Source: Pseudothauera nasutitermitis (GTDB taxonomy: Bacteria > Pseudomonadota > Gammaproteobacteria > Burkholderiales > Rhodocyclaceae). Taken from it: a stretch of DNA of 64,000 bases. Positions 24,592-58,292 of this stretch are shown piece by piece. The first letter of the stretch is position 1, and every line of letters starts with the position of its first letter. The position numbers and the translations under genes are program-made. The notes under the pieces are model-generated. The model worked only from the letters and a program-made list of their open reading frames with translations, was not told the DNA's origin and did no database searches. The DNA is taken from assembly GCF_004801295.1 (NCBI RefSeq), contig NZ_SSOC01000006.1, positions 124,001 through 188,000 of the forward strand, written 5' to 3'.

Positions 24592-25509
24592 TCAGCCCTG
24601 CGGTTTCGGCAGCGGCGGCAGGCCGATGAGCTGCAGCCATTCGCGCAGTTCGGCCAGTCCGGCGCTGGTCAATTCCGCCATGTCCGCTTCTTCCAGTTCG
24701 AGCATCGCCGCGCGCAGATAGACGATGCCACCGCCCCCGGCTTCCGGCGCCAGCGCGGTGGACGCCACGCCGGCGGCCAGCTGCAGCACGCCGGCCAGCA
24801 GATAGGGGCGAGAATCGGGCTCGAAGCCGCCGCCTTCGGGGTCGCGCTGCCAATACACCACGTCGGCCAGTTCGGTGGGGACGCCCCAGTCGGCCAGCAG
24901 CACCGCCGACAGTTCGTGGTGGTCGAAACCGAAGGCCTGCTGTTCGAGCAGTTGCAGCGGTACGCCGCGTTCGGCGGCGCGTGCCAGCACGGTGCCGTAC
25001 TCGTCCGGCGCGGCGGTGGCGAAGGCCAGCCGGCCGATGCCGGCGAGCAGGCCGAGCACGAAGGCCTCGCCCGGGCGGAACTGGCGGAAATGCGCGGCCA
25101 GGCGGTCCATCAGCACGGCGGTGTACAGCGATTCGGTCCAGAACATCTGGTAGTTGAAGTGCGTGCAGCGCGGCCGCGCGTGGTCGCGGATCATCGACAG
25201 CGCCAGCGCGTGTGCGCGCACCATCTGCATGCCTGCGCGCACCACCGCGCGCTTGAGGTCGAGGGTGCGCTCGATGCCGCCGAAGCGCGCGGCGTTGGCC
25301 GCGCGCAGCACGAAGCCGGTGAGCGCCGGATCGGTCTGGATGACGCGCACGGTCTCGTCGATGCTTGCCTCGGGGTCGCGCGCCAGTTCGATCAGGCGCA
25401 GCGCGGCGCCCTTCGGGCTGGGCAGCGCTTCGGCGTCGAGCAGGAAGCGGCGGATCTGGTCGCGCGTGACATCCGGGTCGCGCGGCGCGGAGGCGGCGGG
25501 TGTGCTCAT
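24592..25509 (-). CDS. HDOD-domain signalling protein
   Basis: A 305-residue soluble protein whose HDOD domain spans about 18-220 (LPSPKGAALRLIELARDPEA, VIQTDPALTGFVLRAANAAR, GLLAGIGRLAF, FGFDHHELSAVLLADWGVP). HDOD is a non-catalytic relative of HD phosphohydrolases found in bacterial signalling proteins, often linked to cyclic di-GMP, motility or chemotaxis. The HD metal pair is incomplete, as expected. The ATG at 25509 overlaps the stop of the DUF1631 gene by 4 bases, so the two are coupled. The C-terminal 70 residues have no named domain. Confidence 0.88.
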   Translation of the reverse strand: MSTPAASAPRDPDVTRDQIRRFLLDAEALPSPKGAALRLIELARDPEASIDETVRVIQTDPALTGFVLRAANAARFGGIERTLDLKRAVVRAGMQMVRAHALALSMIRDHARPRCTHFNYQMFWTESLYTAVLMDRLAAHFRQFRPGEAFVLGLLAGIGRLAFATAAPDEYGTVLARAAERGVPLQLLEQQAFGFDHHELSAVLLADWGVPTELADVVYWQRDPEGGGFEPDSRPYLLAGVLQLAAGVASTALAPEAGGGGIVYLRAAMLELEEADMAELTSAGLAELREWLQLIGLPPLPKPQG

Positions 25510-27533: not shown

Positions 27534-27850
27534 GCTGGGATCGGTCACTTGCCTGCTCGCGGAGGATCGGGCGCCGACGCGGAAATGCGCCGGGCGGCGG
27601 TGGAGGTGTGTGCAAGGTGAATATTGCCTGCCGTTCCATCCGGCGTCCACCGTGCGGGGTGTCGGGGGCACGGGTTATCCCGGCCTTGACATTCGCAAGA
27701 CGTACGATCATATTCAAACGAACGTTCGAATCATGCTCCCGCGAACCATCCACGGGGGACATGGCGAAAGCGTTGCAACACCCGAAATCATACAAAAGAC
27801 CTAAAAGCACACCTTCCGCCGGCACCAACCGGCATCACAGGAGGAGACAA
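27534..27850. other. 317-base divergent region before the DUF1302 gene
   Basis: Non-coding region between the minus-strand DUF1631 gene and the plus-strand DUF1302 gene. It contains the promoter and operator described at 27686-27730 and then about 120 bases of untranslated leader ending in a strong AGGAGGAGACA ribosome site before the ATG at 27851. No clear minus-strand promoter was found. Confidence 0.65.
27686..27730 (+). promoter_or_regulatory. Sigma-70 promoter with PsrA/TetR-type operator for the envelope module
   Basis: A perfect -35 box TTGACA at 27686-27691 and CATATT (4 of 6) at 27709-27714 are spaced 17 bases apart. Overlapping the -10 box is the operator TTCAAACGAACGTTCGAA at 27713-27730. 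Its AAAC-N4-GTTC core resembles the AAAC-N2-4-GTTT sites of the fatty-acid regulator PsrA. The same operator, with 15 of 18 bases identical, lies at the tetR promoter at 34641-34658. Binding there would cover the transcription start and repress the operon. Confidence 0.75.
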
Positions 27851-29755
27851 ATGTATCGGAACCCGCATCAACGGGCCGTTCCGCGGCCCTGCCTTCGTCC
27901 CGCCGTACTCGGTGCCGCGGTGGCGCTGGCGGTGGGCGGCACTGCACCGGCGCATGCCTTCGAGTTTTCCGGCGCCGATGGCGAACTCACCGGCAGCTTC
28001 GACACCACCCTCTCGATCGGCGGCCTGTGGCGCATGCAGGACCGCGAGAAATCCCTGATCAGCATCGCCAATGGCGGCACGTCGCGCGATCCGAACTCGG
28101 ACGACGGCAACCTGCGCTACAAGAAGGGCGAACTGGTCTCGCTGGCCGTCAAGGCCACCCATGATCTGGAACTGCGCTACCGCAACTACGGCGCCTTCGT
28201 GCGTGCCTCGTACTTCTACGACGACGCGATCATGGGCAAGAGCGGCCTGCATTCGTCGGCGCGGCGCGAGGCGGGGCGCGATGCGGAAATCCTCGACGCC
28301 TACGTGCGCGGCGCCTTCGAGATCGGCGGGCGCAGCCTCAACGTGCGCGCCGGCCGCCAGGTGGTGAGCTGGGGCGAGAGCACCTTCATCCAGAACGGCA
28401 TCAACGTGCTCAATCCGATCAACGTCACCCGCCTGCGCGTGCCGGGCGCCGAATTGAAGGAAGGCCTGATTCCCACCGGCATGCTGTGGGCCTCGCAGGA
28501 ACTGACCGACAACCTGTCGCTGGAAGCGGTGTGGATCGCGGAGTGGAAGGAAACCAAGATCGAGCCGGTGGGTACCTTCTTCAGCACCAATGATTTCGTC
28601 GCCACGGGGGGCAACATCGCCTACACCGGCTTCGGGCGGAGAAAGGACGGGAATGCGGCACCCGCGATGTTCGGCCTGGACCCCACTGCGCAACTCTTCG
28701 CTCCCCGTTCGAAGGATCGGGAGCCCAGTGATGGCGGCGAATACGGGATTTCGCTGCGCTGGTTCGTGCCGGAGCTGAACAACACCGAATTCGGCTTCTA
28801 TCACGTCAATTACCACAGCCGTACGCCCTATGTTTCGGGCTATCGCGGCGGTATCAGCGTCCATTCGACGCCGATTTCCGGCTGCACGGTGTTCGACGCG
28901 CCGCTCGCCTCTGTGGCGGGCCTTCCGACTGCTTGTGCCTTCGCGGCCGGGCGGGCGGGATCCTACTTCGTCGATTACCCGAAGAACATCAAGCTGTTCG
29001 GTTTGAGTTTCAACACGGAGGGGCCGGCCGGCATCGCCTTGCAGGGCGAGTACTCCTATCGCAAGAACCAGCCCCTGCAACTGCCTTCCGCCGATTTGCT
29101 GAACGCGGCCCTGGGCCTGGGCAACCAGATCACCACGACCAACCCGATCGATGCCCAGGCGGTGCCCTACGGCACCGAGATCAAGGGCTACCGCCGGGTG
29201 AAGATGCATCAGGTGCAATTCACCGGTACCAAGGCACTGCCGCGCGTGCTGGGCGCCGAGCAGATGGTGATGGTCGGCGAGGTCGGCTACACCTATCTCG
29301 ATCTGCCCTCCAATCTCAAATTCGCCGCGCCGGGCTGCCATCTGCCCCAGGTTGGCTCGGAAGCCAGTTCGGCCTTCGGTTCGACCTCCGCTGGCTGCTT
29401 CATGACCCGCAACTCCTGGGGCTACCGTCTGGTCGGCCGGCTGGACTACAACAACCTGATCGACGGGGCCACCGTGTCGCCCCGGCTGGCGTTCTCCCAT
29501 GACGTCAGCGGCCGCAGCCCGACCTTCAACGAAGGCGCCAAGGCGCTGACCCTGGGGCTGGGGGTGAACTACCGGCAGAACTGGCAGGCCGACATCGCCT
29601 ACACCAGCTTCTTCGGCGGCAAGAAGATCAAAGGGACCGATCCGGGCGCTGCGTCGCCGCAGTTTCCCGCCGGACAGGCCGCCACCTACGCCAGCCACAC
29701 CAATCCGCTCGTCGACCGCGATTTCCTCTCGGTCAGCGTGAGCTATTCGTTCTGA
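27851..29755 (+). CDS. DUF1302 outer-membrane beta-barrel-like protein
   Basis: A 634-residue exported protein of the DUF1302 family, found beside DUF1329 proteins in organisms that use fatty acids, esters, steroids or other hydrophobic compounds. A signal peptide ends at AHA (34-36) and the mature part begins FEFSGADGELTGSFDTTLSI. The rest is rich in alternating polar/apolar strands and aromatic residues (ELRYRNYGAFVRASYFYDD; GRQVVSWGESTFIQNGINV), and the chain ends with aromatic Phe (SVSVSYSF), as outer-membrane barrels do. It is the first gene of a four-gene module, with a strong AGGAGG ribosome site. Channel or uptake function is inferred, not shown. Confidence 0.85.
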   Translation: MYRNPHQRAVPRPCLRPAVLGAAVALAVGGTAPAHAFEFSGADGELTGSFDTTLSIGGLWRMQDREKSLISIANGGTSRDPNSDDGNLRYKKGELVSLAVKATHDLELRYRNYGAFVRASYFYDDAIMGKSGLHSSARREAGRDAEILDAYVRGAFEIGGRSLNVRAGRQVVSWGESTFIQNGINVLNPINVTRLRVPGAELKEGLIPTGMLWASQELTDNLSLEAVWIAEWKETKIEPVGTFFSTNDFVATGGNIAYTGFGRRKDGNAAPAMFGLDPTAQLFAPRSKDREPSDGGEYGISLRWFVPELNNTEFGFYHVNYHSRTPYVSGYRGGISVHSTPISGCTVFDAPLASVAGLPTACAFAAGRAGSYFVDYPKNIKLFGLSFNTEGPAGIALQGEYSYRKNQPLQLPSADLLNAALGLGNQITTTNPIDAQAVPYGTEIKGYRRVKMHQVQFTGTKALPRVLGAEQMVMVGEVGYTYLDLPSNLKFAAPGCHLPQVGSEASSAFGSTSAGCFMTRNSWGYRLVGRLDYNNLIDGATVSPRLAFSHDVSGRSPTFNEGAKALTLGLGVNYRQNWQADIAYTSFFGGKKIKGTDPGAASPQFPAGQAATYASHTNPLVDRDFLSVSVSYSF

Positions 29756-29785
29756 CCGACGCACGGACACCAGGAGACAGGAACC

Positions 29786-31132
29786 ATGCGCAATTCCCTC
29801 ACGATCCTCGGCGCCGCGCTGGCGCTGGCTTTCGTACCCGCCGCCCACGCCGAGGTGAGCGCGGCGCAGGCCGCCGAACTGGGCAAGAGCCTGACCCCGC
29901 TGGGCGCCGAGCGCGCCGGCAATGCGGCGGGCACCATTCCCGCATGGGATGGCGGGCTGACCAAGCCGCCGGGGGCGCACACCTCCGGCGACCACTACGC
30001 CGACCCGTTCGCCGCAGACCAGCCGCTGTTGGAGATCACCGCAGCCAACGCCGCGCAGCATCAGGACAAGCTCACCCCGGGGCAACTGGCGCTGCTCAAC
30101 ACCTATCCGACCTGGAAGATAAAGGTGTATCCGACGCGGCGCAGCGCGGCCTTCCCGCAGGGGCATTACGACCAGACCGTAGCCAATGCCACCAAGGTCA
30201 AGCTGGCGGACAACGGCAGCAGCTTCAGCGGGACCACCGGCGGGATTCCCTTCCCCATCCCGCAGAACGGCATGGAAGCAATCTGGAACCACCTGGCGCG
30301 CTATCGCGGCGAGGCCTACGCGATGAACTGGAGCCAGGCGGCGGTGACCCGCACGGGCAGCTACACGCCGGTGCGCTTCGAGTACGAGTACGACTTCCAC
30401 TACGGCAGCCTGACCAAGAGCGATGCCGAGCGCGAGCCCAACAAGCTGTTCAACTTCCTGCAGACGGTGACCGCGCCGGCCCGCCTGGCCGGGCAGATCC
30501 TGCTGGTGCATGAGTTCCTCGACTCGCGCCAGGCGTGGACCTACAACCCCGGCCAGCGCCGCGTACGCCTGGCGCCCAACGTGTCCTACGACAACCCGGG
30601 CACGGCGGCCGACGGCCTGCGCACCAACGACGACTTCATCATGTTCAACGGCGCCATCGACCGTTACGACTGGAAGCTCGTCGGCAAGCAGGAAATCTAC
30701 GTGCCGTACAACTCGTACAAGCTGGTCGGCAACCAGGTGAAGATGGCCGACGTGCTGATGGCCGGCCACCTCAACCCGGAACACGCGCGCTACGAGCTGC
30801 ACCGCGTGTGGGTGGTGGAGGCCACGCTCAAGCAGGGCACCAGCCACATCTACCACCGCCGCACGTTCTACATCGACGAGGACTCGTGGATGATCGTGGT
30901 GGCCGACAAGTACGACTCGCGCGGCCAGCTGTGGCGGGTGTCGGAGCAGCACAACATCAACTTCTACGACGTGCCGATGCAGTATCCCTCGCTGGAGGTG
31001 CACCACGACCTGCAGTCCGGGCGCTACATCGCCATGGGCCTGCGCAACGACGAGCCGCGCCTCTACCAGCAGGCGGATCGCCGCTCGGCGCGCTTCACCC
31101 CGGCCGGCCTGCGCGACCTGGGCACGCGTTGA
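29786..31132 (+). CDS. DUF1329 periplasmic protein
   Basis: A 448-residue exported protein with signal peptide MRNSLTILGAALALAFVPAA followed by HA and cleavage before EVSAAQAAEL; no lipobox Cys is present, so it should be soluble in the periplasm. Family features include NAAGTIPAWDGGLTKPPG near the start, YPTWKIKVYPTRRSAAFPQG (about 108-127), and the central beta-rich region (LVHEFLDSRQAWTYNPGQRR) that resembles the LolA/LolB lipoprotein-carrier fold as I recall it. It follows the DUF1302 gene by 30 bases. A role in carrying a hydrophobic molecule between membranes is plausible by fold and context. Confidence 0.85.
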   Translation: MRNSLTILGAALALAFVPAAHAEVSAAQAAELGKSLTPLGAERAGNAAGTIPAWDGGLTKPPGAHTSGDHYADPFAADQPLLEITAANAAQHQDKLTPGQLALLNTYPTWKIKVYPTRRSAAFPQGHYDQTVANATKVKLADNGSSFSGTTGGIPFPIPQNGMEAIWNHLARYRGEAYAMNWSQAAVTRTGSYTPVRFEYEYDFHYGSLTKSDAEREPNKLFNFLQTVTAPARLAGQILLVHEFLDSRQAWTYNPGQRRVRLAPNVSYDNPGTAADGLRTNDDFIMFNGAIDRYDWKLVGKQEIYVPYNSYKLVGNQVKMADVLMAGHLNPEHARYELHRVWVVEATLKQGTSHIYHRRTFYIDEDSWMIVVADKYDSRGQLWRVSEQHNINFYDVPMQYPSLEVHHDLQSGRYIAMGLRNDEPRLYQQADRRSARFTPAGLRDLGTR

Positions 31133-31307
31133 GCCGCTGACCGCCATGCGCCCGCTCGTCCCGCCTCGGCGTTCTTCGACGGGGCGGGGCGCCGCCCGCC
31201 CGCCGACGCTGTCGGCGGGGAGGCCGACGGCCGGGCGCAAACCGGCGCCTTCCCGAGCGCAAGCCGCTGGCGATGCGCCGAGCAGATTTTCCCTTCCACG
31301 GTTTTCC

Positions 31308-32279
31308 ATGAATCTCTATAAAGCCATCGGCGTACTGTTCGTGCTGTTCGTCGGCGCGACCGTCATGTTCGCCTTCTCCCCGCGCCACGGCGCACCCGTG
31401 CCGCCCACCGAAATCCGCATCGAGCAGTTGCTGATGCTTGATGCCGCCTTGCTCGAGGACGGCCGTCTGGTCGCGGCGGGCGAGCGCGGCCGCATCTTCT
31501 ACTCCGACGATGGCGGCGCGTACTGGCAGACGGCGGCCAGCCCGACCGAAGCCACGCTGACCGCGCTGAGCTTCACCGACGCCCGGCACGGTGTGGCGGT
31601 CGGGCACGACGCGGTGGTGCTGCGCACCGAGGATGGCGGGACGACCTGGCAGTTGGTGGCGGAAGACCCGCAGGCCGAAGCCCCCTTGCTCGCGGTGCGC
31701 ATGGAAGCCGACGGGCGCGGGCTGGCGGTGGGCGCCTACGGCAGCGCGCTGGCCAGCGCGGACGGCGGCGCGCATTGGGAGCCGGTGACCTTGGCGGACG
31801 ACGACCGGCACTTCAACGCGCTGGCCGCGCTGCCGGACGGCACGCTGCTGCTCGCCGGCGAGGCCGGTCTGCTGATGCGCTCGGACGACGGCGGGGAGAA
31901 CTGGGCGGCGCTGGAGTCGCCCTACAACGGTTCCTTCTTCGGCCTGCTGACGCTGCCCGGCGACGTGGTGCTGGCCTACGGCATGCGTGGCCACATCTTC
32001 CGCTCGGAAGACCGTGGCGAACATTGGGAAGAGGTGGATTCCGGCATCGAGGCTACCCTGTTCGGCGGCCGCGTGCTGGACGACGGGCGCGTGGTGCTGG
32101 CCGGCCAGGCCGGCACGGTGCTGGTCGGCGATGCGCAGGGGCGCGGCTTCGCGCCGGGCGGGAATGACGATACCGGTGTGTATGGCGCGGTGCTGCCGCG
32201 CGCCGGTGGATTGCTGCTGTTCGGCGAGGGCGGCGTGCGCCGGATGGCGATGGAAGGGAACGGGGGAAGCAAACAATGA
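31308..32279 (+). CDS. YCF48/BNR-repeat beta-propeller protein, membrane-anchored
   Basis: A 323-residue protein from the ATG at 31308; an ATG at 31146 would add 54 basic residues and was rejected because the hydrophobic anchor (5-24, KAIGVLFVLFVGATVMFAFS) should be near the start. The anchor places the rest in the periplasm. At least five repeats of the type SDDGGAYWQTAASP, TEDGGTTWQLVAED, SADGGAHWEPVTLA, SDDGGENWAALESP and SEDRGEHWEEVDSG mark a YCF48-type propeller. YCF48 is a photosystem II assembly factor in cyanobacteria, but this fold is general. It overlaps the MMPL permease gene by 4 bases (ATGA), so the two products probably act together. Confidence 0.85.
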   Translation: MNLYKAIGVLFVLFVGATVMFAFSPRHGAPVPPTEIRIEQLLMLDAALLEDGRLVAAGERGRIFYSDDGGAYWQTAASPTEATLTALSFTDARHGVAVGHDAVVLRTEDGGTTWQLVAEDPQAEAPLLAVRMEADGRGLAVGAYGSALASADGGAHWEPVTLADDDRHFNALAALPDGTLLLAGEAGLLMRSDDGGENWAALESPYNGSFFGLLTLPGDVVLAYGMRGHIFRSEDRGEHWEEVDSGIEATLFGGRVLDDGRVVLAGQAGTVLVGDAQGRGFAPGGNDDTGVYGAVLPRAGGLLLFGEGGVRRMAMEGNGGSKQ

Positions 32280-34657
32280 AGGCCAATCGTCTCGTCCAGG
32301 CCTTCGGCCATGTGCTGTTCCGCCAGCGCAAGCTGTTCCTCGCGTTGTTCGTGCTGCTCACCGTGCTGCTGGGCTGGTCGGCATCGAACCTGAAGGTGGA
32401 TGCCGGGTTCGAGAAGATGATTCCGCTCGAACACCCCTACATGAAGACCTTCATGGACTACCGCAGCACCTTTGGCGGCGCCAACCGCGTGCTGGTCGTG
32501 CTGCGCCAGAAGCAGGGCGACATCTACACGCCCGAATTCTTCAGCGCGCTGAAGGGACTCACCGACGACGTGTTCTTCCTGCCCGGCGTGGATCGCGCCA
32601 CGGTGACCTCGCTGTTCACCCCCAACGTGCGCTACATCGAGGTGGTGGAGGAAGGCTTCGCCGGCGGCAACGTGATTCCCGCCGACTTCGCCGGCACCCC
32701 GGAAGACCTCGTGCAGGTGCGCGAGAACGTGCTGAAATCCGGCCGTCTGGGGCGCCTGGTGGCCAACGACCACAGCGCCGCGCTGATCAGCGCCGAACTG
32801 CTGGAAATCGACCCGACCACCGGTGCGCGCCTGGACTACCTGGCCGTGGCCGACCTCCTGGAAGAACTGCGCGCGCGCTACGAACAGGCGGGCTTCGAGG
32901 TGAACATCATCGGCTTCGCCAAGGCCGTCGGCGACATCACCGATGGCGCGCGCGGCGTGCTGGTGTTCTTCGCCGTCACCATCGTGGTGACCGGGCTGCT
33001 GCTGTACGCCTACGTCGGCTCGGCGCGGCTGGCGGGGCTGGGCGTGCTGTGCGCCCTGGTGCCGGTGGTCTGGCAACTCGGCATCCTGCCGCTGGTGGGC
33101 TTCGGCATCGATCCGATGTCCATCCTGGTGCCCTTCCTGATCTTCTCCATCGGCATCAGCCATGCGGTACAGATGGTCAATGCCTGGAAGATCGAGGCCG
33201 AACATGGCGCGGACGGGCTCACCGCGGCCAACAACGCCTTCCTCAAACTGTTCCTGCCCGGCGCCACCGCGCTGACCACCACGGCGCTCGGCTTCCTGGT
33301 GATCCTGTTCATCGACATCGCCATGGTGCAGGAACTGGCCCTGACCGCGGCGATCGGCGTGGCGCTGATCATCGTCACCAACAAGATGTTGCTTTCCGTG
33401 CTGCTTACCTGGGTGCCGGCCGAGGCGGTGCGCAGCGCGCGCCCGCGCGCCAGCGGAGAATGGCTGTGGCAGCGCCTCAAGCACTTCGCCGAGCCGCGCC
33501 GCGCGGTCTGGGTGCTGGCCGGTGCTGCGCTGCTGCTCAGCGTGGCGGCCTTGCAGGCACGCAGCGTGCAGACCGGCGATCTGGGCGACGGCATCCCCGA
33601 ACTGCACGACGATTCGCGCTACAACCGCGATACCGCTGCCATCGTCGGCTCCTTCTCGATCGGCGTCGACGTGCTTTCGGTGATCGCGCAGACCCATGGC
33701 GTGGACGGCGCGTGCACCGACTTCGAGATCATGGACACGCTCGACCGCTTCGAGACGCAGATGCGCAACACCTATGGCGTGCAGGGCGTGCTCTCGCTGC
33801 CGGGCATGGCCAAGGTGGTCAACGCGGGCTGGAACGAGGGCAATCCGCGCTGGCGCGTGCTGTCGCGCGACCCCAGCGTGCTCGCCCAGTCGGTGACCCC
33901 CATCGACACCTCCACCGGGCTGCTCAACACCGACTGCAGCGCGATGCAGATCCTCATCTTCACCCGCGACCACGAGGGCCGCACCATCGCTCACATCGTC
34001 GAGGAGGTGAAGAAGTTCGCCGACGCGAATCGCTCCGAACGCCTGGATTTCCTGCTCGCCTCGGGCAACGTCGGGGTCATGGCGGCCACCAACGAGGCGG
34101 TCGACGCGGCCGAACTGAAGATCCTCGTGCTGCTGCTGCTGTCCATCGGCCTGGTGTGCTATCTGGAGTTCCGCTCGCACACCGCCACGCTGTGCATCGT
34201 GCTGCCGCTGTCGCTGGTCGCGGTGACCTGCAACGCGCTGATGGCCACGCTGGGCATCGGCCTGAAGGTGCCCACGCTGCCGGTGATCGCGCTGGGCGTG
34301 GGCATCGGCGTGGACTACGGCATCTATCTCTACGAGCGCATGCAGCACCAGCTGCGCCGTGGCGGTTCGCTGGTCAATGCCTATCTGGAAGCCCTGCGCC
34401 AGCGGGGCACGGCAACCTTGTTCACCGCCGTGGCGATGAGCATCGGCGTGGGCTCGTGGGCGTTCTCCGCGCTCAAGTTCCAGGCCGACATGGGCGTGCT
34501 GCTGGCCTTCGCCTTCCTCGCCAACATGCTGGCGGCGGTGCTGCTGCTGCCGGCGCTGGCCTCCATCCTGCTGGTTTCGCAGGATCGTCGCCGGCTGGCG
34601 GCGATGAAAAGGCTTGACGCGCGCAAATTCAAACGTACAATTAAAACGAACGTTTGA
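32276..34657 (+). CDS. MMPL/RND-family exporter
   Basis: A 793-residue inner-membrane transporter with two repeats of one helix, a large periplasmic loop and five helices. Helix 1 is about 18-37, loop 1 about 40-225, helices 2-6 about 226-380, helix 7 about 408-428, loop 2 about 430-615, and helices 8-12 about 616-766. Conserved intramembrane segments include FLIFSIGISHAVQMVNAWKI and ALGVGIGVDYGIYLYERMQH, with the polar residues expected for proton relay. Relatives export lipids (MmpL) or hopanoids (HpnN). The 3' end contains the tetR promoter. With DUF1302, DUF1329 and the propeller it forms a probable envelope-spanning lipid transport system. Confidence 0.9.
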   Translation: MKANRLVQAFGHVLFRQRKLFLALFVLLTVLLGWSASNLKVDAGFEKMIPLEHPYMKTFMDYRSTFGGANRVLVVLRQKQGDIYTPEFFSALKGLTDDVFFLPGVDRATVTSLFTPNVRYIEVVEEGFAGGNVIPADFAGTPEDLVQVRENVLKSGRLGRLVANDHSAALISAELLEIDPTTGARLDYLAVADLLEELRARYEQAGFEVNIIGFAKAVGDITDGARGVLVFFAVTIVVTGLLLYAYVGSARLAGLGVLCALVPVVWQLGILPLVGFGIDPMSILVPFLIFSIGISHAVQMVNAWKIEAEHGADGLTAANNAFLKLFLPGATALTTTALGFLVILFIDIAMVQELALTAAIGVALIIVTNKMLLSVLLTWVPAEAVRSARPRASGEWLWQRLKHFAEPRRAVWVLAGAALLLSVAALQARSVQTGDLGDGIPELHDDSRYNRDTAAIVGSFSIGVDVLSVIAQTHGVDGACTDFEIMDTLDRFETQMRNTYGVQGVLSLPGMAKVVNAGWNEGNPRWRVLSRDPSVLAQSVTPIDTSTGLLNTDCSAMQILIFTRDHEGRTIAHIVEEVKKFADANRSERLDFLLASGNVGVMAATNEAVDAAELKILVLLLLSIGLVCYLEFRSHTATLCIVLPLSLVAVTCNALMATLGIGLKVPTLPVIALGVGIGVDYGIYLYERMQHQLRRGGSLVNAYLEALRQRGTATLFTAVAMSIGVGSWAFSALKFQADMGVLLAFAFLANMLAAVLLLPALASILLVSQDRRRLAAMKRLDARKFKRTIKTNV

Positions 34658-34658
34658 T
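34614..34658 (+). promoter_or_regulatory. tetR promoter and operator inside the 3' end of the MMPL gene
   Basis: TTGACG (34614-34619, 5 of 6) and TACAAT (34636-34641, 5 of 6) are spaced 16 bases. Directly after the -10 box is TTAAAACGAACGTTTGAT (34641-34658), sharing 15 of 18 bases with the operator at 27713-27730. Between the boxes is an additional half-site TTCAAACG (34628-34635) identical to the left half of that operator. This is the layout of a TetR regulator repressing its own gene and the genes downstream. Confidence 0.78.
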
Positions 34659-34698: not shown

Positions 34699-35403
34699 AT
34701 GGACACTTCCTCCTCAGCCCGCCACACGCCGGAAACCCGCAGCCGCATCCTCGATGCGGCCGAGGGGCTGTTCGTCGAGCATGGCTTCGAGGCCACGTCG
34801 ATGCGCATGATCACCAGCCAGGCCGGGGTCAACCTGGCGGCGGTGAATTACCACTTCGGCAGCAAGGATGCGCTGATCCAGGAAGTCTTCCGCCGCCGCC
34901 TCACCGACCTCAACCGCCAGCGCCTGGCCATGCTGGAGCGCCTGGAAAGCGAGGCGGGCGGCGCGCCGCTCAAGCCCAGCCGCATCGTCGAGGCCTTCTT
35001 TGGCACCGCGCTGGCCATGGCGGCCGATACCGAGCACGGCGGGCATACCTTCATGCGCCTGCTCGGGCGCACCTACACCGAACCCAACGCCTTCGTGCGC
35101 CAGTTCCTCGCGGAAGAGTACGCCGAGGTGCTGGAACGCTTCCTCGGCGCGCTGTACGGCGCGCTGCCGGACGTGCCGCGCGAGGAAATCCTGTGGCGCT
35201 TCCATTTCATGATGGGCGCGATGTCCTACGCCATCGCCGGCACCGACGCGCTGCAACTGTTCGCCGGCAAGTTCGACGACGCCGACCCGGCGCGCATGCT
35301 GCCCCGGCTGATGTCCTTTCTGCTCGGCGGCCTGCGCGCGCCGCTGCCCGATTACACCGGGCTGGCGGTCAAGGCGCGGCGCGGCGGCCGAGAGGCCGCA
35401 TGA
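34699..35403 (+). CDS. TetR-family regulator, PsrA-like
   Basis: A 234-residue repressor. The N-terminal helix-turn-helix (about 12-55) reads TRSRILDAAEGLFVEHGFEA and ITSQAGVNLAAVNYHFGSKD. The C-terminal ligand domain (FMRLLGRTYTEPNAFVRQFL, WRFHFMMGAMSYAIAG) resembles PsrA, the long-chain fatty-acid or acyl-CoA responsive repressor of Pseudomonas beta-oxidation genes. It sits at the head of the beta-oxidation operon, 74 bases before fadE, with a repeated operator at its promoter. The two matching operators suggest it controls both the envelope module and the fatty-acid genes. The inducer is inferred. Confidence 0.87.
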   Translation: MDTSSSARHTPETRSRILDAAEGLFVEHGFEATSMRMITSQAGVNLAAVNYHFGSKDALIQEVFRRRLTDLNRQRLAMLERLESEAGGAPLKPSRIVEAFFGTALAMAADTEHGGHTFMRLLGRTYTEPNAFVRQFLAEEYAEVLERFLGALYGALPDVPREEILWRFHFMMGAMSYAIAGTDALQLFAGKFDDADPARMLPRLMSFLLGGLRAPLPDYTGLAVKARRGGREAA

Positions 35404-35477: not shown

Positions 35478-37976
35478 ATGATCTGGTGGATTCTCGTTTC
35501 CCTCCCTCCCTTGGCAGGCGCGCTCGCCTTCGGGCGAGCGCCATTTTTTGCCTGGGCGATCGCGGGTCTGGCCTGGCTGGCCGGACTGTCCTGGGCGGCT
35601 GGTTTCGTGCCCCTCACCACGGCGCTGGTGCTGGGCGCGTGGGTGGTTTTCTCGGCGCTCTTCCTGATCCGTCCGCTGCGCCGCGCGCTGATCAGCGCGC
35701 CGATCTTCCGTGCCTTCCGCAAGGCGCTGCCGTCCATGTCGCAGACCGAGAAGGATGCGCTGGAAGCCGGCACCGTATGGTGGGAAGGCGACCTGTTCGC
35801 CGGCCGGCCGGACTGGAAGAAGCTGCTGGCCTATCCGTGGCCGCAGCTCACCGCCGAGGAACGCGCCTTCCTCGATCAGGAAACCGAGGAACTGTGCCGC
35901 CTCACCGACGACTGGGACAGCACGCAGAAGCAGGATCTGGCCTCGCACGTGTGGCGCTACATCAAGGAAAAGGGCTTCCTGGGCATGATCATTCCCAAGG
36001 AGTACGGCGGCAAGGGCTTCTCGGCCTACGCCCACTCCCAGGTCATCACCAAGCTGTCCACGCGCTCGTCCGCCCCGGCGGTAACCGTGATGGTGCCCAA
36101 CTCGCTGGGCCCGGCCGAGCTGCTGCTGCACTACGGCACGCCGGAGCAGAAAGCCCACTACCTGCCGCGCCTGGCGCGCGGCGAGGACATTCCCGCCTTT
36201 GCGCTGACCAGCCCGTGGGCCGGGTCGGACGCCGCGTCGATTCCCGATGCCGGCGTGGTGTGCAAGGGCATCTGGCAGGGCAAGGAAGTGCTCGGCATGC
36301 GGGTGAGCTTCGACAAGCGCTACATCACCCTCGCGCCGGTGTGCACGGTGTTCGGCCTGGCCTTCCGCCTGTTCGACCCGGAGCGCCTGCTCGGCGGCGC
36401 CGAGGATCTCGGCATCACCTGCGCGCTGGTGCCGCACGACCATCCGGGCGTGGACATCGGCCGCCGCCACCTGCCGCTCAACGCGGTGTGGATGAACGGG
36501 CCGGTGCGCGGCACCGACGTGTTCATGCCGCTCGACTTCATCATCGGCGGCGCGCAGATGGCCGGCCAGGGCTGGCGCATGCTGATGGAGTGCCTGGCCG
36601 CCGGGCGCAGCATCTCGCTACCCGGCTCCAACACCGGCATGCAGAAGCTCACCGCCCGCGCGGTGGGTGCCTATGCCCGGGTGCGCTACCAGTTCAAGAC
36701 CGCCATCGGCCGCTTCGAGGGCGTGGAAGAAGCGCTCACCCGTATCGGTGCCAACACCTATCTGAGTGACGCCGCGCGCGTGCTCACCGCCGCCGCCGTG
36801 GATCTGGGCGAGAAGCCCTCGGTGGTCTCCGCCATCGTCAAGTACCACGTCACCGAGCGCGCCCGCCAGACCGTCAACGACGGCATGGACGTGATCGGCG
36901 GCAAGGGCATCTGCCTGGGGCCGCAGAACTTCCTCGGGCGCGCCTACCAGCAGATTCCGGTGGGCATCACCGTGGAAGGCGCCAACATCCTCACCCGCAG
37001 CCTGATCCTCTTCGGCCAGGGCGCGATCCGCTGCCATCCCTACGTGCTGGCCGAGATGCGCGCCGCGCAGCAGAACGATCTGGCCGCCTTCGACGAGGCT
37101 TTCTGGGGGCACATCGGCTATACCGTGTCCAATGCCGCGCGCGCGCTGGTGATGGGTCTGACCGGCTCGCACTTCGTCGGCGTACCGGCCGGCGTGGCGT
37201 CCGAGACGCGGCGCTACTACCAGCAGCTCACGCGCTTCTCGGCGGCCTTCGCGTTCATCTCCGACCTGTCCATGGGCACTCTGGGCGGTGCGCTGAAGCG
37301 CAAGGAAAAGCTCTCCGCGCGCCTGGGCGACATCCTCTCGCTGATGTATCTGGCCAGCGCCACGCTGCGCCGCTACGAGGCCGAAGGCCGCCAGGCCGCC
37401 GACGCGCCGCTGATGCACTGGGCGATCTGGGACTGCATGTTCCGCGCGCAGAACGCCTTCGAGGGCGTCATCGCCAACTTCCCCAACCGGCTGTTCGCCA
37501 CCGTGCTGCGCCGTCTGGTGGTGTTCCCGCTGGGCAGGCCCTACGTGGTGCCGTCCGACCGCCTCGGCCACCAGGTCGCGCGCCTGCTCATCGAACCCTC
37601 GGCCACGCGCGACCGGCTGACCTCCGACGTCTATCTGCCGACCGATCCCGAAGAGCCGGTGGGGGCGCTGGAAGCCGCGCTGGCCGCCACCATCGAGGCC
37701 GAACCCATCGAGGCCAAGCTGAAGAGGGCGCAGCGCGACGGCAGCTTCCGGCCCGGCGTGGTGATCGGCGGCGTGGATGCGATGTGGACCACGGCGCTGG
37801 AGTACGGCGTGATCAGCGCCGACGAATTCGCCGTGATCGAACGCCGCAACCGCCTGCGCGACCAGGTCATCCGCGTCGACGACTTCGTCTACGACTTCGG
37901 CCTGCGCGCTGCGCTGCACGAGGCGCCGGCCACTGGCGAGCACGCCCGCCAGGCGGCGGAACGGGTCGCCGCATGA
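35478..37976 (+). CDS. fadE: Long-form acyl-CoA dehydrogenase (FadE)
   Basis: First oxidation step of fatty-acid beta-oxidation, forming trans-2-enoyl-CoA with FAD. The 832 residues include two N-terminal hydrophobic segments (about 3-20 and 27-60) as in E. coli FadE, then the acyl-CoA dehydrogenase domains: HVWRYIKEKGFLGMIIPKEY, ALTSPWAGSDAASIPDAGVV, and NDGMDVIGGKGICLGPQNFL. An additional C-terminal region (about 600-832), also seen in FadE, follows. The ATG at 35478 has AAAGGAGA upstream. The 3' end overlaps the thiolase gene by 4 bases (ATGA). Confidence 0.93.
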   Translation: MIWWILVSLPPLAGALAFGRAPFFAWAIAGLAWLAGLSWAAGFVPLTTALVLGAWVVFSALFLIRPLRRALISAPIFRAFRKALPSMSQTEKDALEAGTVWWEGDLFAGRPDWKKLLAYPWPQLTAEERAFLDQETEELCRLTDDWDSTQKQDLASHVWRYIKEKGFLGMIIPKEYGGKGFSAYAHSQVITKLSTRSSAPAVTVMVPNSLGPAELLLHYGTPEQKAHYLPRLARGEDIPAFALTSPWAGSDAASIPDAGVVCKGIWQGKEVLGMRVSFDKRYITLAPVCTVFGLAFRLFDPERLLGGAEDLGITCALVPHDHPGVDIGRRHLPLNAVWMNGPVRGTDVFMPLDFIIGGAQMAGQGWRMLMECLAAGRSISLPGSNTGMQKLTARAVGAYARVRYQFKTAIGRFEGVEEALTRIGANTYLSDAARVLTAAAVDLGEKPSVVSAIVKYHVTERARQTVNDGMDVIGGKGICLGPQNFLGRAYQQIPVGITVEGANILTRSLILFGQGAIRCHPYVLAEMRAAQQNDLAAFDEAFWGHIGYTVSNAARALVMGLTGSHFVGVPAGVASETRRYYQQLTRFSAAFAFISDLSMGTLGGALKRKEKLSARLGDILSLMYLASATLRRYEAEGRQAADAPLMHWAIWDCMFRAQNAFEGVIANFPNRLFATVLRRLVVFPLGRPYVVPSDRLGHQVARLLIEPSATRDRLTSDVYLPTDPEEPVGALEAALAATIEAEPIEAKLKRAQRDGSFRPGVVIGGVDAMWTTALEYGVISADEFAVIERRNRLRDQVIRVDDFVYDFGLRAALHEAPATGEHARQAAERVAA

Positions 37977-39259
37977 ACCGCCCGGTCTACATCGTCGACG
38001 GCGCGCGCACGCCCTTCCTGAAAGCGAAGAACGCACCCGGCCCGTTCGCCGCCGCCGATCTGGCCACCGCCGCCGGCAGCGCCCTGCTGGCCCGCCAGCG
38101 CTTCGCCCCGGAGCAGCTCGACGAAGTCATCCTGGGCTGCGCCAGCCCCTCGCCGGACGAGGTCAACATCGGCCGCGTGGTGGCGCTGCGCATGGGCTGC
38201 GGGCAGAAGGTGCCGGGCTGGACGGTGATGCGCAACTGCGCCTCCGGCATGCAGGCGCTCGACTCGGCCATCGCCAACATCCAGGCCGGGCGTTCGCAAC
38301 TGGTGCTGGCCGGCGGCGTGGACGCGCTGTCGCGCGCGCCGCTACTGTTCTCCGACGCCATGGTGCGCTGGCTGTCCGGCTGGTACGCGGCCAAGAGCAC
38401 CGGGCAGAAGCTCGCCGCGCTGCGCCGCTTCAAGCTGGGCTATCTGGCGCCGGTGATCGGCATCATGAAGGGCCTCACCGACCCCATCGTCGGCCAGTTG
38501 ATGGGGCAGACCGCCGAGAACCTCGCCCACCGTTTCGGCATTTCCCGCGAGGACATGGATGCCTACTCGATGGCCAGCCATCTGCGCGTGAAGACGGCGC
38601 GCGAGGCCGGCCATTTCGACGACGAGATCGTCCCGCTGATCGGCCGCGACGGCAGCGTGATTCGCCACGACGACGGCGTGCGCGACGATGCCTCGATGGA
38701 AGGGCTGGCCAAGCTCAAGCCCTTCTTCGACCGCAAGTACGGCCGGGTCACCGCCGGCAACAGTTCGCAGATCACCGACGGCGCGGCCTGGCTGGTGCTG
38801 GCTTCGGCCGAAGCCGTGGCGCGCCACGGCCTGAACCCGCTGGGGCGCATCGCCGACAGCCAGTGGGCCGGTCTGGACCCGGCGCAGATGGGTCTGGGGC
38901 CGGTGCATGCTGCAGCGCCCATCCTGCAGCGCCACGGCCTGGCGCCCAACGAACTGGATGCCTGGGAGATCAACGAAGCCTTCGCCGCCCAGGTCATCGC
39001 CTGCCAGCGCGCGCTGGCCGATGCCGACTACTGCCGCGATGAACTCGGCCTGCCCGACGCGCTCGGCGCCATCGACGCCGAACGCCTCAACGCCGACGGC
39101 GGCGCGGTGGCCCAGGGGCACCCGGTGGGTGCCAGCGGCGCGCGCATCGTGCTCCATCTGCTGCACCGCCTGCGCCGCAGCGGGGGACAGCGTGGCATCG
39201 CCTCCATCTGCATCGGCGGCGGCCAGGGCGGCGCGATGCTGGTCGAACGCATCGGCTGA
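37973..39259 (+). CDS. Acetyl-CoA C-acyltransferase, FadI-like thiolase
   Basis: Thiolytic cleavage of 3-ketoacyl-CoA. The 428 residues carry the nucleophile Cys 89 in MRNCASGMQALDSA, the NEAFAAQ block (about 340), HPVGASGARI (about 382, catalytic His) and the second Cys in CIGGGQGGA (about 413). An insertion around residues 120-165 (DAMVRWLSGWYAAKSTGQKL) is typical of the larger FadI type. It is coupled to fadE by an ATGA overlap. A second thiolase is encoded at 45276, so this copy may have a different chain-length range. Confidence 0.93.
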   Translation: MNRPVYIVDGARTPFLKAKNAPGPFAAADLATAAGSALLARQRFAPEQLDEVILGCASPSPDEVNIGRVVALRMGCGQKVPGWTVMRNCASGMQALDSAIANIQAGRSQLVLAGGVDALSRAPLLFSDAMVRWLSGWYAAKSTGQKLAALRRFKLGYLAPVIGIMKGLTDPIVGQLMGQTAENLAHRFGISREDMDAYSMASHLRVKTAREAGHFDDEIVPLIGRDGSVIRHDDGVRDDASMEGLAKLKPFFDRKYGRVTAGNSSQITDGAAWLVLASAEAVARHGLNPLGRIADSQWAGLDPAQMGLGPVHAAAPILQRHGLAPNELDAWEINEAFAAQVIACQRALADADYCRDELGLPDALGAIDAERLNADGGAVAQGHPVGASGARIVLHLLHRLRRSGGQRGIASICIGGGQGGAMLVERIG

Positions 39260-39420
39260 ACCATGCAACACAGGGGCGAGGCGCCCGCAGAGTGCGCCCG
39301 CCCCGCTGCTTACGTCCCGGTCCGGCTCCGCCTGGGGCCCCCTGCACCCCATCCGGGGCCGGGCATGGACGTATCCGCACCCCAAGAGAACAGTCGCCGC
39401 CGGCGACGACGCGAGGAGAC

Positions 39421-40365
39421 ATGGAGATCGGACTTGTGGTGGATGCCGCCTGCGACCTGCCGCCCGCCTTCCTGGCGGAGCAGGGCGTCGAAGTGCTGCC
39501 GATCGGCATCCGCCTGGGCGAGCGGCAGATGGAAGACGTGCGCGACCCCGAGCGCACCGCAGCCTTCTACCGCGAGCGGCTGGACCGGCGCACCGAACTG
39601 CACGCGCAGTCGCGCCCGCTGGAGCCGGCCGAGATCGAGGCGGTGGTGCTCGAACGCTGGGCCACCCGCTACGACCACCTGGTGTGCATGACCATCACCG
39701 CCAGCCGCAGCCCGATCTACGCCCACGCCACCCGCGCGGCGCTCACCGTCGGCACCCGGGCGCGCGAGGTGCGCAGGGCGGCGGGCCTGCCGCTGCGCTG
39801 GGGCGCGACCGTGGTCAACAGCCGCTCCATGTTCGCCGGGCAGGGCGTGCTGGCCTGGGAAGCCGCGCGCCTGCGCGCCGCCGGCAGCGGCCTGGGGGAA
39901 CTGGAACAGCGCCTGCTCGGCCTGGCGGAGCACATCCATGCCTACCTGGTGGCCGATGACCTGTATTTCATCCTGCACCGCGCAGCGCGCAAGGGCGAGC
40001 GCAGCGTCAACTGGGCGAGCTACGCGCTGGGCAACCTGCTCGACGTGAAGCCCATCCTGCACTGCCACCGCGACAGCACCGAGCCGGTGGCCAAGGCGCG
40101 CGGCTTCGAGGCCGGCGCCCGACGCCTGTTCGACAACGTGCTGGCGCAATGCACGGCCGGGCTGGAAGTGCCCTGTGTGTGTCTCAGCTATGCCGGGGAT
40201 CTGGCGCGCCTGGAGCGTCTGGAGGGCTATGCCGGTTTCCGCGCGGCCCTGCAAACCCAGGGTGTGGCGCTGCTGGTCAGCCAGATGAGCAAGACCGGCG
40301 CGATCAATGTCGGCATCGGCAGCCTGTGCGTGGCCTTTGCCGCCGCCCGGCACCGTTTCTCATGA
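39421..40365 (+). CDS. DegV-family (fatty-acid-binding) protein
   Basis: DegV proteins bind a single fatty acid; in Gram-positive bacteria they are the FakB subunits that present fatty acids to FakA kinase. The 314-residue protein starts at the ATG at 39421 after GAGGAGAC. The N-terminal motif is VVDAACDLPPAFLAEQGVEV, with DAACDLP in place of the commoner DSTxDLP, and TITASRSPIYAHATRAAL corresponds to the SGTY loop. The lid and second domain follow (LGNLLDVKPILHCHRDSTEP, SQMSKTGAINVGIGSLCVAF). No FakA-like kinase is present. It lies 161 bases after the thiolase, in the middle of a beta-oxidation operon, so a fatty-acid carrier or sensing role is likely. Confidence 0.85.
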   Translation: MEIGLVVDAACDLPPAFLAEQGVEVLPIGIRLGERQMEDVRDPERTAAFYRERLDRRTELHAQSRPLEPAEIEAVVLERWATRYDHLVCMTITASRSPIYAHATRAALTVGTRAREVRRAAGLPLRWGATVVNSRSMFAGQGVLAWEAARLRAAGSGLGELEQRLLGLAEHIHAYLVADDLYFILHRAARKGERSVNWASYALGNLLDVKPILHCHRDSTEPVAKARGFEAGARRLFDNVLAQCTAGLEVPCVCLSYAGDLARLERLEGYAGFRAALQTQGVALLVSQMSKTGAINVGIGSLCVAFAAARHRFS

Positions 40366-40397
40366 GCGCGGCAGCCCATAGCCGCTGGAGTAGAAGA

Positions 40398-42377
<1,980 letters not shown>

Positions 42378-42402: not shown

Positions 42403-42813
42403 ATGACCGCCACCCCCGCCGAAGAACCCACCCGCCTGCCCGAGGGCAAGCAGCCCGCCCTGCGCGTGATGCCCATGCCGGCCGACCTGAACCCCGCCGG
42501 CGACGTGTTCGGCGGCTGGATCATGTCCATGGCCGATATCGCCGGGTCGATCCTGGCGCGCCGCCGAGCGCGCAGCCGGGTGGTCACCATCGCGGTGAAT
42601 TCCTTCACCTTCCGGCAGCCGGTGTCGGTGGGCGATCTGGTGAGTTTCTATACCGAAGTGGTGTCCACCGGGAACACCTCGGTGACCGTGGACGTGGAAG
42701 TGCTCGCCGAGCGCGACCCGGAGAACCCGGTGGTGGTGAAAGTGACCGAAGCCCGCCTGACCTACGTGGCGGTGGACGACAAGGGGCGCAAGCGTCCGCT
42801 GCCGCCCGCATGA
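42403..42813 (+). CDS. YciA-type acyl-CoA thioesterase (hotdog fold)
   Basis: Hydrolyses acyl-CoA to free acid and CoA, balancing CoA pools. The 136-residue protein has the family signature MPADLNPAGDVFGGWIMSMA (about 26-45) with the catalytic Asn-Pro-x-Gly-Asp region, VVTIAVNSFTFRQPVSVGDL and LTYVAVDDKGRKRPLPPA at the end. It lies 25 bases after the fused dehydrogenase and 53 bases before the next, so it is inside the operon. Its preferred chain length cannot be read from the sequence. Confidence 0.9.
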   Translation: MTATPAEEPTRLPEGKQPALRVMPMPADLNPAGDVFGGWIMSMADIAGSILARRRARSRVVTIAVNSFTFRQPVSVGDLVSFYTEVVSTGNTSVTVDVEVLAERDPENPVVVKVTEARLTYVAVDDKGRKRPLPPA

Positions 42814-42866
42814 TCCGCGCCGCCGCGAGGGCGGCGGCGCTGTATACAAAAGAGGAGGAGAACACA

Positions 42867-45248
<2,382 letters not shown>

Positions 45249-45275: not shown

Positions 45276-46475
45276 ATGAGCAAACAGATTCAGGACGCCT
45301 ACCTCGTCGCCGCGACCCGCACGCCGGTGTCCAAGCGCAACGGCATGTTCCGCCACGTGCGCCCCGACGACATGCTGGCCCACGTGCTGAGCGCCGTGGT
45401 GGGCCAGGTGCCGGGGCTGGACGCCGGTGAGATCGGCGATGTGGTGGTCGGCTGCGCCATGCCGGAAGCCGAGCAGGGCATGAACGTGGCGCGCATCGGC
45501 CTGCTGCTGGCCGGCCTGCCGGACCGGGTGCCGGGCATCACCATCAACCGCTTCTGCGCCTCCGGTCTGCAGGCGGTGGCCGACGCCGCCAACCGCATCC
45601 GCCTGGGCGAGGCCGACGTGATGATCGCCGCCGGCACCGAGTCGATGAGCGCCATGCCGCAGATCATGGGCAACAAGGTCAGCCTCAACCCGGCCATTTT
45701 CGACAAGGCGGAGAACGTCGCCATCGCCTACGGCATGGGCCTGACCGCCGAGCGCGTGGCCGCCAAATGGCAGGTCAGCCGCGAGGACCAGGACGCCTTT
45801 GCCCTGCAATCCAACCAACGTGCCTGCGCGGCGATCGCCGCCGGGCGCTTCCGCGACGAGATCACCCCGTACACCGTGCATGCCCACCTGCCGGGCGAGG
45901 GCGGTACGGTGCGCGTCAGCGAGCGCCTGTGCGAGCATGACGAAGGCCCGCGCCCGGATGCCAGCCTGGAAGGTCTGGGCAAGCTGCGCCCGGTATTCGC
46001 CGCGCGCGGCTCGGTGACCGCCGGCAACAGCTCGCAGATGTCCGACGGCGCGGGCGCCGTGCTGCTGATGAGCGAGGCCGCGCTGAAGCGCTACAACGTC
46101 ACGCCGGTGGCGCGCTTCGCCTCCTTCGCGGTGGCCGGCGTGCCGCCCGAGGTCATGGGCATCGGCCCGGTGGAAGCCATCCCGCGCGCGTTGGCGGCCG
46201 CCGGCGTGAGCCTGGGCGACATCGGCTGGACCGAGCTCAACGAAGCCTTCGCCGCGCAGGCGCTGGCGGTGATGCGCCAGCTCGACATGGACCCCGCCAA
46301 GGTCAATCCGCTGGGCGGCGCCATCGCCCTGGGTCACCCGCTGGGTGCCACCGGGGCCATCCGTGCCGCCACGCTGGTCAGCGCGATGCGCCGCGATCCG
46401 GCGCTGCGCTTTGGGCTGATCAGCATGTGCATCGGCACCGGCATGGGCGCGGCGGGCGTGTTCGAACGCGTCTGA
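45276..46475 (+). CDS. fadA: Acetyl-CoA C-acyltransferase, FadA-type thiolase
   Basis: Second thiolase of the operon, 399 residues, releasing acetyl-CoA from 3-ketoacyl-CoA. Nucleophile Cys 94 is in NRFCASGLQAVADA, the NEAFAAQ block is at about 321, the catalytic His in GHPLGATGAIR (about 353), and the proton-donor Cys in CIGTGMGAAG (about 385). It is the usual compact length, shorter than the first thiolase (428). AAAGGAGACC precedes the ATG. It forms a pair with the FadN-like enzyme. Confidence 0.94.
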   Translation: MSKQIQDAYLVAATRTPVSKRNGMFRHVRPDDMLAHVLSAVVGQVPGLDAGEIGDVVVGCAMPEAEQGMNVARIGLLLAGLPDRVPGITINRFCASGLQAVADAANRIRLGEADVMIAAGTESMSAMPQIMGNKVSLNPAIFDKAENVAIAYGMGLTAERVAAKWQVSREDQDAFALQSNQRACAAIAAGRFRDEITPYTVHAHLPGEGGTVRVSERLCEHDEGPRPDASLEGLGKLRPVFAARGSVTAGNSSQMSDGAGAVLLMSEAALKRYNVTPVARFASFAVAGVPPEVMGIGPVEAIPRALAAAGVSLGDIGWTELNEAFAAQALAVMRQLDMDPAKVNPLGGAIALGHPLGATGAIRAATLVSAMRRDPALRFGLISMCIGTGMGAAGVFERV

Positions 46476-48259: not shown

Positions 48260-50038
<1,779 letters not shown>

Positions 50039-50040
50039 GC

Positions 50041-57196: not shown

Positions 57197-57198
57197 CG

Positions 57199-57245: not shown

Positions 57246-57283
57246 GAGCCAGTTCGAAAAAGCGATAGAGGGAAACGGAAAAA

Positions 57284-58288: not shown

Positions 58289-58292
58289 CGCT

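Follow-up and report, generated by a model that had tools for sequence, protein, structure and literature searches.

We analysed a stretch of 64,000 nucleotides from Pseudothauera nasutitermitis (NCBI RefSeq assembly GCF_004801295.1, contig NZ_SSOC01000006.1, positions 124,001 to 188,000; hereafter the window), in which four consecutive genes of the forward strand, named here A, B, C and D in that order, occupy positions 27851-34657. They probably encode a transporter of four parts that spans the envelope and is of the AmeABCD type, so called after a set from Castellaniella defragrans 65Phen; here it would serve for long-chain acyl compounds, either free fatty acids or their esters. An earlier note, made from the sequence alone, had described four consecutive genes between these positions and a 4-base overlap of the last two; both descriptions held, the overlap being 32276-32279. 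The genes are as follows.

27851..29755, + strand: gene A, DUF1302 outer-membrane barrel of 634 residues (Pfam, 589 bits)
29786..31132, + strand: gene B, DUF1329 periplasmic carrier-like protein of 448 residues (Pfam, 501 bits)
31308..32279, + strand: gene C, YCF48-type propeller with an N-terminal membrane anchor, 323 residues (Pfam PSII_BNR, 77 bits; start set by homology)
32276..34657, + strand: gene D, MMPL/HAE3-like resistance-nodulation-division (RND) permease of 793 residues (Pfam MMPL, 81 bits)

The ATG of A is preceded by aggaggag, a stretch resembling a ribosome-binding site. The longest frame of C opens at 31146; the starts of its homologues resemble the ATG at 31308, which gives the length listed. 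The genome (4.72 Mb in 20 contigs) contains a single DUF1329 match, and the closest named relatives of B are found in a Thauera metagenome assembly (92%) and in Pseudothauera lacus (86%). The sole other DUF1302-like match of the genome, on another contig (C5, L096 3742-5037, - strand), is remote (39-46 bits), overlaps Wzi and porin models and adjoins polysaccharide-export genes; it probably represents the same fold in an unrelated role.

That the set spans outer membrane, periplasm and inner membrane, as the earlier note had proposed, is supported by the family matches and by the models of A and B. The AlphaFold model of A (mean predicted local distance difference test, pLDDT, 88; predicted template modelling score, pTM, 0.85) had the Occ/OprD channels as closest structural neighbours, with OccK9 at VIA Z 23.4 (root-mean-square deviation 3.6, 324 aligned residues, 8% identity), a result also obtained with Foldseek. 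By the fold likeness of its model, A is thus an OprD/Occ-type barrel, its sequence-family match being DUF1302 only. This was the sole Pfam match, Toluene_X (the FadL family) not being matched; by sequence A had no significant match in the PDB (best E 0.49), and the FadL fold was not among the 50 structural neighbours listed. The resemblance of DUF1329 to lipoprotein-carrier folds, mentioned in the earlier note, proved right. B matches LolA_like (44.6 bits, cut-off 30) besides DUF1329, and its model (mean pLDDT 88, pTM 0.89) aligned with Porphyromonas gingivalis LolA3 (9tp6) at VIA Z 19.1 (Foldseek was also run), with a solved DUF1329 protein (4z48) at 17.6, with a Vibrio LolA-like domain (3bk5) at 17.2 and with an E. 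coli LolA complex (7z6x) at 7.8. In this model, residues ~158-446 adopt the LolA fold, and the N-terminal part is hardly covered by the comparison.

Hydropathy gave C a single N-terminal hydrophobic stretch (residues 1-27). For D, which had been read as a 12-helix RND permease, the MMPL match agrees with the type of permease; the figure of 12 helices is that expected from the family match, as neighbouring helices are merged in the hydropathy scan. The best NCBIfam model of D was HAE3 (TIGR00921), at 163.2 bits against a cut-off of 351.9, and its profile matches in the PDB were MmpL4/5, HpnN and MmpL3 chains. Other curated NCBIfam models also fell below their cut-offs (HpnN 74.4 of 751.85 bits, BstA 22.7 of 1400). 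D680-Y681, in the second half of D, is invariant in 41/41 homologues and aligns with an Asp-Tyr pair of MmpL5. S295-H296 in the first half is equally invariant (41/41), an asymmetry with respect to the Asp-Tyr pair in the likely proton path; by comparison with MmpL3, we take 295-296 and 680-681 to be probably equivalent proton-relay positions.

The best clue to the substrate, which the earlier note did not use, lies in a PsrA-like regulator, its predicted operators and the beta-oxidation genes downstream. The regulator and the sites around it are listed below; both promoter-like sites score 10/12, and each was found once against 0.1 in shuffles.

27686..27714, + strand: promoter-like site of A, TTGACA-17-CATATT
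27713..27730, + strand: PsrA-type operator before A (1 mismatch), having 2 bases in common with the -10 box
34614..34641, + strand: promoter-like site of the regulator gene, TTGACG-16-TACAAT, within the 3' end of D
34641..34658, + strand: PsrA-type operator before the regulator gene (2 mismatches), having 1 base in common with the -10 box
34699..35403, + strand: PsrA-like TetR regulator of 234 residues (TetR_N; TetR_C_30, 125.2 bits)
25506-27671, - strand: DUF1631 protein, divergent to A, whose upstream region contains the promoter and operator of A

PsrA (NF053516) was the best of 17 NCBIfam models for the regulator, which also carries TetR_C_30, a domain that we take to mark PsrA. The operator pattern is that of the Pseudomonas putida PsrA footprint on rpoS, TTCAAAC-N4-GTTTGAA, and oleic acid releases PsrA from a target, according to excerpts of a 2026 review (PMC13104628). 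When up to 3 mismatches were allowed, the window contained three matches, of which the third overlaps the second; 0.22 would be expected. The whole genome had two sites when a single mismatch was tolerated and five when two were, two of the five being at this locus, and a reversed control pattern gave one. Judged from the sequence, the predicted operators, touching the -10 boxes, have a position that would suit a repressor. As for the remaining genomic sites, the sole other 1-mismatch site (C6:275548-275565) has a nitronate-monooxygenase/FabK-like gene on one side and a glycine-transporter-domain gene on the other, the site at C4:163206 precedes an AIR-synthase-domain gene and that at C4:183449 falls inside long overlapping frames.

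Some relatives of the locus carry the same signal. Of 69 testable loci, 7 had a perfect site in the 330 bases before A; tolerating one mismatch raised this number to 13 and tolerating two to 15, compared with 2 and 9 of 3380 windows elsewhere in the same loci (at most 1 and 2 mismatches) and 0 of 1380 shuffles. The loci with such a site belong mostly to Thauera, Azoarcus, other Rhodocyclales and Thioalkalivibrio. Upstream of the regulator gene, 13/14 relative loci had a site with at most 2 mismatches. At the same offset, 25 of 27 relative sites were accompanied by a promoter-like pair of at least 9/12, taken as the best pair within a 25-base range and without a shuffle control.

From the regulator onwards, genes of the same strand continue to position 46475 and are mostly of beta-oxidation type:

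35478..37976, + strand: FadE-type acyl-CoA dehydrogenase (Pfam ACDH_C, 386 bits; PRK09463, 1159 bits, cut-off 600; FadE_coli under its cut-off)
37784..39259, + strand: thiolase, longest frame (Pfam thiolase; NCBIfam PRK08170, 761 bits)
39292..40365, + strand: DegV-family protein, longest frame (Pfam DegV, 147 bits; weak FakB1 match, 22 bits)
40149..42377, + strand: FadJ/FadB-type enoyl-CoA hydratase / 3-hydroxyacyl-CoA dehydrogenase, longest frame (Pfam; FadJ, 489 bits, below its cut-off of 869)
42810..45248, + strand: 3-hydroxyacyl-CoA dehydrogenase / crotonase (Pfam; best NCBIfam model, 575 bits, below its cut-off)
45276..46475, + strand: FadA-type acetyl-CoA acyltransferase (Pfam; PRK09052, 691 bits, cut-off 567), forming a pair with the preceding gene

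The true start of the thiolase is probably located after fadE, since its match begins at residue 62-68. DegV-family proteins are known for fatty-acid binding.

We clustered the flanking proteins of 65 loci of at least 9 kb, with genes called by a composition heuristic and the Pfam scan made on one representative of each recurrent cluster. Thiolases were found at 25 loci, acyl-CoA synthetase-type AMP-binding enzymes at 20, 3-hydroxyacyl-CoA dehydrogenases at 18, PsrA-like regulators at 14 and FadE at 12; at least one of these five neighbour types occurred at 38 loci, and at least two at 26. In a tree of D, in which branches are long, above all those of the plasmid rows, the window falls in a supported clade made up of 40 chromosomal rows and one plasmid row, 31 of these 41 having beta-oxidation or PsrA-like neighbours. 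The neighbour label changes 9 times on this tree, against a mean of 18 when shuffled.

Other genes lie further along the window. A Fic-domain protein (Fic_N, Fic and a SoFic-like C-terminal domain; 47054-48160, - strand) stands near the beta-oxidation block. Genes for a sodium-pumping NADH dehydrogenase, of NqrA, NqrB and FMN-binding type, occupy 48524-52033 (+ strand), a second NqrB/RnfD-type gene being found on contig C4 (L093 364-1434), and a TonB-dependent receptor gene is paired with a FecR-type regulator gene at 54758-58399 (- strand).

To what extent the four genes belong together was seen in two samples. The first comprised 80 loci picked by similarity to B, and the linkage rates from it are those of a biased sample: A lay just upstream in 76/77 testable loci, C downstream in 64/72 and D in 54/62. 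These loci extend to Verrucomicrobia, Desulfuromonadales and Acidobacteria. An in-frame start allowing a 4-base C/D overlap existed in 30/64; for this count D was started as close as possible to the C stop, a choice that favours short overlaps. In one locus (L044 4812-16329), and also in survey genome G078, seven genes follow one another as A B B A B C D, B being present three times and A twice.

The second sample consisted of 249 genomes, taken evenly across the phylum but related to each other. B matches above 150 bits and A matches above 80 bits were kept; weaker, shorter DUF1329 and DUF1302 matches, many of them in family f34, were omitted, as were the second fragments of split C matches and five genomes (G001, G040, G106, G198, G245) whose C matches were all weak. 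Strong matches to A were obtained in 37 genomes; B and D were matched in 36 each and C in 35, and 35 genomes had all four, in agreement with the earlier note's treatment of the four families as one module. The genomes with B and those with D were identical (36/249; the Fisher value for this co-occurrence overstates the case, as the genomes are related), while one genome had A alone (G069) and one lacked C (G154). Copy numbers are lower bounds, few candidates per genome having been scored. C adjoined 53 of 55 copies of D, B adjoined 33 of them, and B adjoined 71 of 76 copies of A; the proposal that the propeller goes with the permease gains from this, and also from the strong contacts predicted by AlphaFold between PP_2018 and PP_2019 of P. 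putida, described in excerpts of that work (PMC10866462). There, PP_0766, the homologue of B, had weak predicted contacts with both PP_0765 and PP_2019, the homologues of A and D, which is in keeping with the shuttle role proposed below for B.

The units found in the survey were AB (41), lone B (23), ABCD (20), CD (19) and BCD (8), followed by lone A (4), lone C (3), BA (3), BADC (2) and seven others once each. The set divides most often between A-B and C-D, and B occurs in company with each of the two halves, as would suit a shuttle in contact with both. Plasmids carry the set as well: among 72,556 plasmid records, B-like genes occurred in 41 and D-like genes in 39, and all four genes were present in four of the five regions that we opened. 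The order was ABCD in Massilia sp. WG5 (amid aldehyde dehydrogenase and similar catabolic genes), BACD in Vibrio alfacsensis (next to meta-cleavage-type genes), BADC in Cupriavidus pinatubonensis (next to arylsulfatase and oxidoreductase genes) and ABCD in Pseudomonas aeruginosa (flanked by sterol-desaturase-family/SDR genes and a mercury operon), while for the Comamonas region D alone was listed, amid transposases.

Two of three survey loci with weaker, shorter DUF1329/DUF1302 matches had shorter LolA_like, MMPL and DUF1302-like genes in a row, with the propeller absent from the run, and the third had another type of inner-membrane transporter:

L102 1099-5476 (G033) and L103 512-4867 (G052): compact LolA_like/MMPL/DUF1302-like sets, genes overlapping or nearly touching
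L104 1023-4376 (G247): LolA_like, DUF1302-like and major facilitator superfamily (MFS) permease genes in a row

It looks as if barrel and carrier are the core, to which exchangeable inner-membrane pumps are added.

From these data we propose how the set might work. A long-chain fatty acid or acyl signal would bind the PsrA-like repressor, which would leave the operators at the -10 boxes of the A and regulator promoters, so that the pump and the neighbouring fad genes would be made together. A would act as the outer-membrane channel and B, of LolA type, would ferry the acyl chain through the periplasm, meeting both A and C-D; C would be the fixed periplasmic partner of D, the proton-driven inner-membrane permease. 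We regard acyl transport by the set as likely, because the operator and the neighbours point to this class of substrate and because PP_0765/PP_0766 and PP_2018/PP_2019 of P. putida were all four required on Tween 20, as reported in the excerpts available (PMC10866462). Provided that acyl compounds are transported, import as fuel for beta-oxidation seems on balance preferable to export of excess fatty acid, since the set adjoins genes that burn the substrate, plasmid relatives mostly adjoin metabolic genes and acetate relieved the growth defect of an ameABCD deletion at lower doses, the deletion having impaired growth on limonene and other apolar monoterpenes in that study (PMC6394551).

Several observations weigh against this interpretation. 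The regulator scores under the NCBIfam cut-off for PsrA (164.7 vs 300), the regions upstream of fadE are without a site (the best of 12 has 5 mismatches) and 27 of the 65 flanked loci have none of the five neighbour types. RND pumps generally export. FadL (Toluene_X) was matched in 32/36 genomes with the set. Beyond the sampled loci of Rhodocyclales and Thioalkalivibrio type, the operator is mostly absent: sites with at most 1 mismatch numbered 108 in 32/36 survey genomes with the set, four genomes having none, and comparison of all 108 with 139 typed genes placed only 4 of them at up to 1.5 kb before any listed A-D gene, namely before A in two genomes (G000, G007) and before a lone B in two others (G126, G144). 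No such operator was found before the A-D genes of the Pseudomonas-like family f12 in the survey genomes. The other sites of the own genome were also rejected as markers of fatty-acid genes, as no evident fatty-acid genes adjoin them. Finally, the ameABCD deletion slightly raised Nile Red in cells treated with carbonyl cyanide m-chlorophenylhydrazone (CCCP) (PMC6394551). Universal PsrA control of the set is rejected by the 4/108 count; as far as predicted operators can tell, PsrA control is the rule in part of the family only.

The reading that survives best besides our own is efflux: the set would rid the inner membrane and periplasm of toxic free fatty acids or other hydrophobic compounds by moving them outside, and its induction by fatty acids would be a safety valve in beta-oxidation. 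The authors of AmeABCD proposed export, and in the excerpts their deletion also lowered limonene tolerance (PMC6394551). D belongs to a superfamily of proton-driven exporters. Yet real-time efflux of Nile Red was nearly equal in wild type and deletion (PMC6394551, same excerpts), acetate abolished the growth defect seen at low limonene, P. putida required each of its four genes to use Tween 20, and the set sits with genes that burn the substrate. Taken together, these data make efflux possible but unlikely.

Outward lipid traffic, in which the set would deliver a lipid of the cell's own making to the outer membrane, as in a remodelling of that membrane during growth on oils, appears improbable. 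LolA-type carriers do move outward in the Lol pathway, and HpnN, a weak profile match of D, is described in the excerpts as moving hopanoids from the inner membrane to the periplasm (PMC6394551); but the neighbours here are genes of breakdown and not of lipid synthesis, and related sets are reported in monoterpene, benzene and alkane contexts. That A-B and C-D are two independent systems under common control, as their 41 and 19 separate units might suggest, is very improbable given that B and D occur in the same 36/249 genomes, that B also joins C-D in 8 BCD units, that the unlinked P. putida genes share the Tween 20 phenotype and that a Thalassolituus protein fuses MMPL and LolA-like domains next to a porin gene (PMC6304351, excerpts).

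FadL is the outer-membrane channel for long-chain fatty acids, the role proposed here for A, which matches DUF1302 and not Toluene_X. The P. nasutitermitis genome had no FadL (Toluene_X) match, a point in favour of acyl transport by the set. The set as a general stand-in for FadL was rejected, as most genomes that bear the set (the 32 of 36 counted above) match Toluene_X. As a tentative and rather doubtful extension, in FadL-less Rhodocyclales the fatty-acid-induced set might be the main entry of long-chain fatty acids; the OprD-like barrel would be the outer gate and the LolA-type protein the periplasmic shuttle, and the RND permease D would draw the acyl chain inward, in reverse of the known RND direction.

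It is not well understood by what route Gram-negative bacteria bring long-chain fatty acids and other greasy compounds through the periplasm once the outer-membrane channel has been passed, and the set offers a complete candidate route. As the likely inducer can be named and the candidate operators are located to the base, the function is directly testable; it would be of interest to biodegradation and lipid biotechnology.

The comparison with known systems begins with AmeABCD, which was deleted and named in 2018 and consists of DUF1302, DUF1329/LolA superfamily, COG4447 (YCF48-related) and HAE3 RND proteins (PMC6394551, excerpts). The earlier note's statement that no function was settled for this set was hence too strong, a function having in part been published, and the set cannot be taken as unstudied in view of the AmeABCD, P. 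putida and benzene-degrader work. Our set has DUF1302, DUF1329, YCF48-type and RND genes in identical order, a likeness at the level of families in which the HAE3 score of D lies below the cut-off, but whereas AmeABCD lies in a monoterpene island, the set here adjoins the PsrA-like regulator, PsrA-type operators and beta-oxidation genes; placement among monoterpene genes characterises the founding member and does not define the cassette type. In the open-licence literature, covered partly by excerpts, no link of the set to PsrA or beta-oxidation genes was found. A literature search on RND-propeller pairs yielded nothing on this set, a comparison with aryl polyenes pointed only to the Thalassolituus proteins treated below, and excerpts of a further paper on fatty acids in P. 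aeruginosa mentioned none of the four parts.

The P. putida set likewise consists of DUF1302, DUF1329, a periplasmic protein and an RND-type transporter by their descriptions, and unlike ours it is split over two loci. In anaerobic benzene degraders a highly expressed 'nanopod' cluster has the same parts (porin-like, DUF1329, YCF48-related and MMPL), but with two extra intervening genes and a link to benzene, and deletion of a DUF1329 gene of Delftia impaired growth on phenanthrene, both from excerpts of one paper (PMC13101534). DUF1302 and DUF1329 genes are adjacent in the phenanthrene cluster of the nanopod paper (PMC3110197) and form a pair in a Zoogloea phenol-hydroxylase cluster (PMC7012976), again as seen in excerpts. 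In Thalassolituus oleivorans, the adjoining TOL_3187/TOL_3188, an MMPL and LolA-like protein and a porin, were raised on n-C28 alkane; carrier and permease, separate genes here, are fused there, and the available text does not mention a propeller (PMC6304351). The three-gene sets of L102 and L103 have carrier, RND permease and barrel as here, with carrier and barrel shorter and no propeller in the run. More distant are HpnN, MmpL3, MmpL4/5 and BstA, RND permeases for lipids or hydrophobes that work with other partners than those of D and have weak profile similarity to it, far below NCBIfam cut-offs. The set also unites isolated observations concerning Tween 20, monoterpenes, benzene, phenanthrene and alkanes under a single modular barrel-carrier-permease family, a well-conserved and partly characterised transporter type of which the variant described here, apparently controlled by fatty acids, is the new part.

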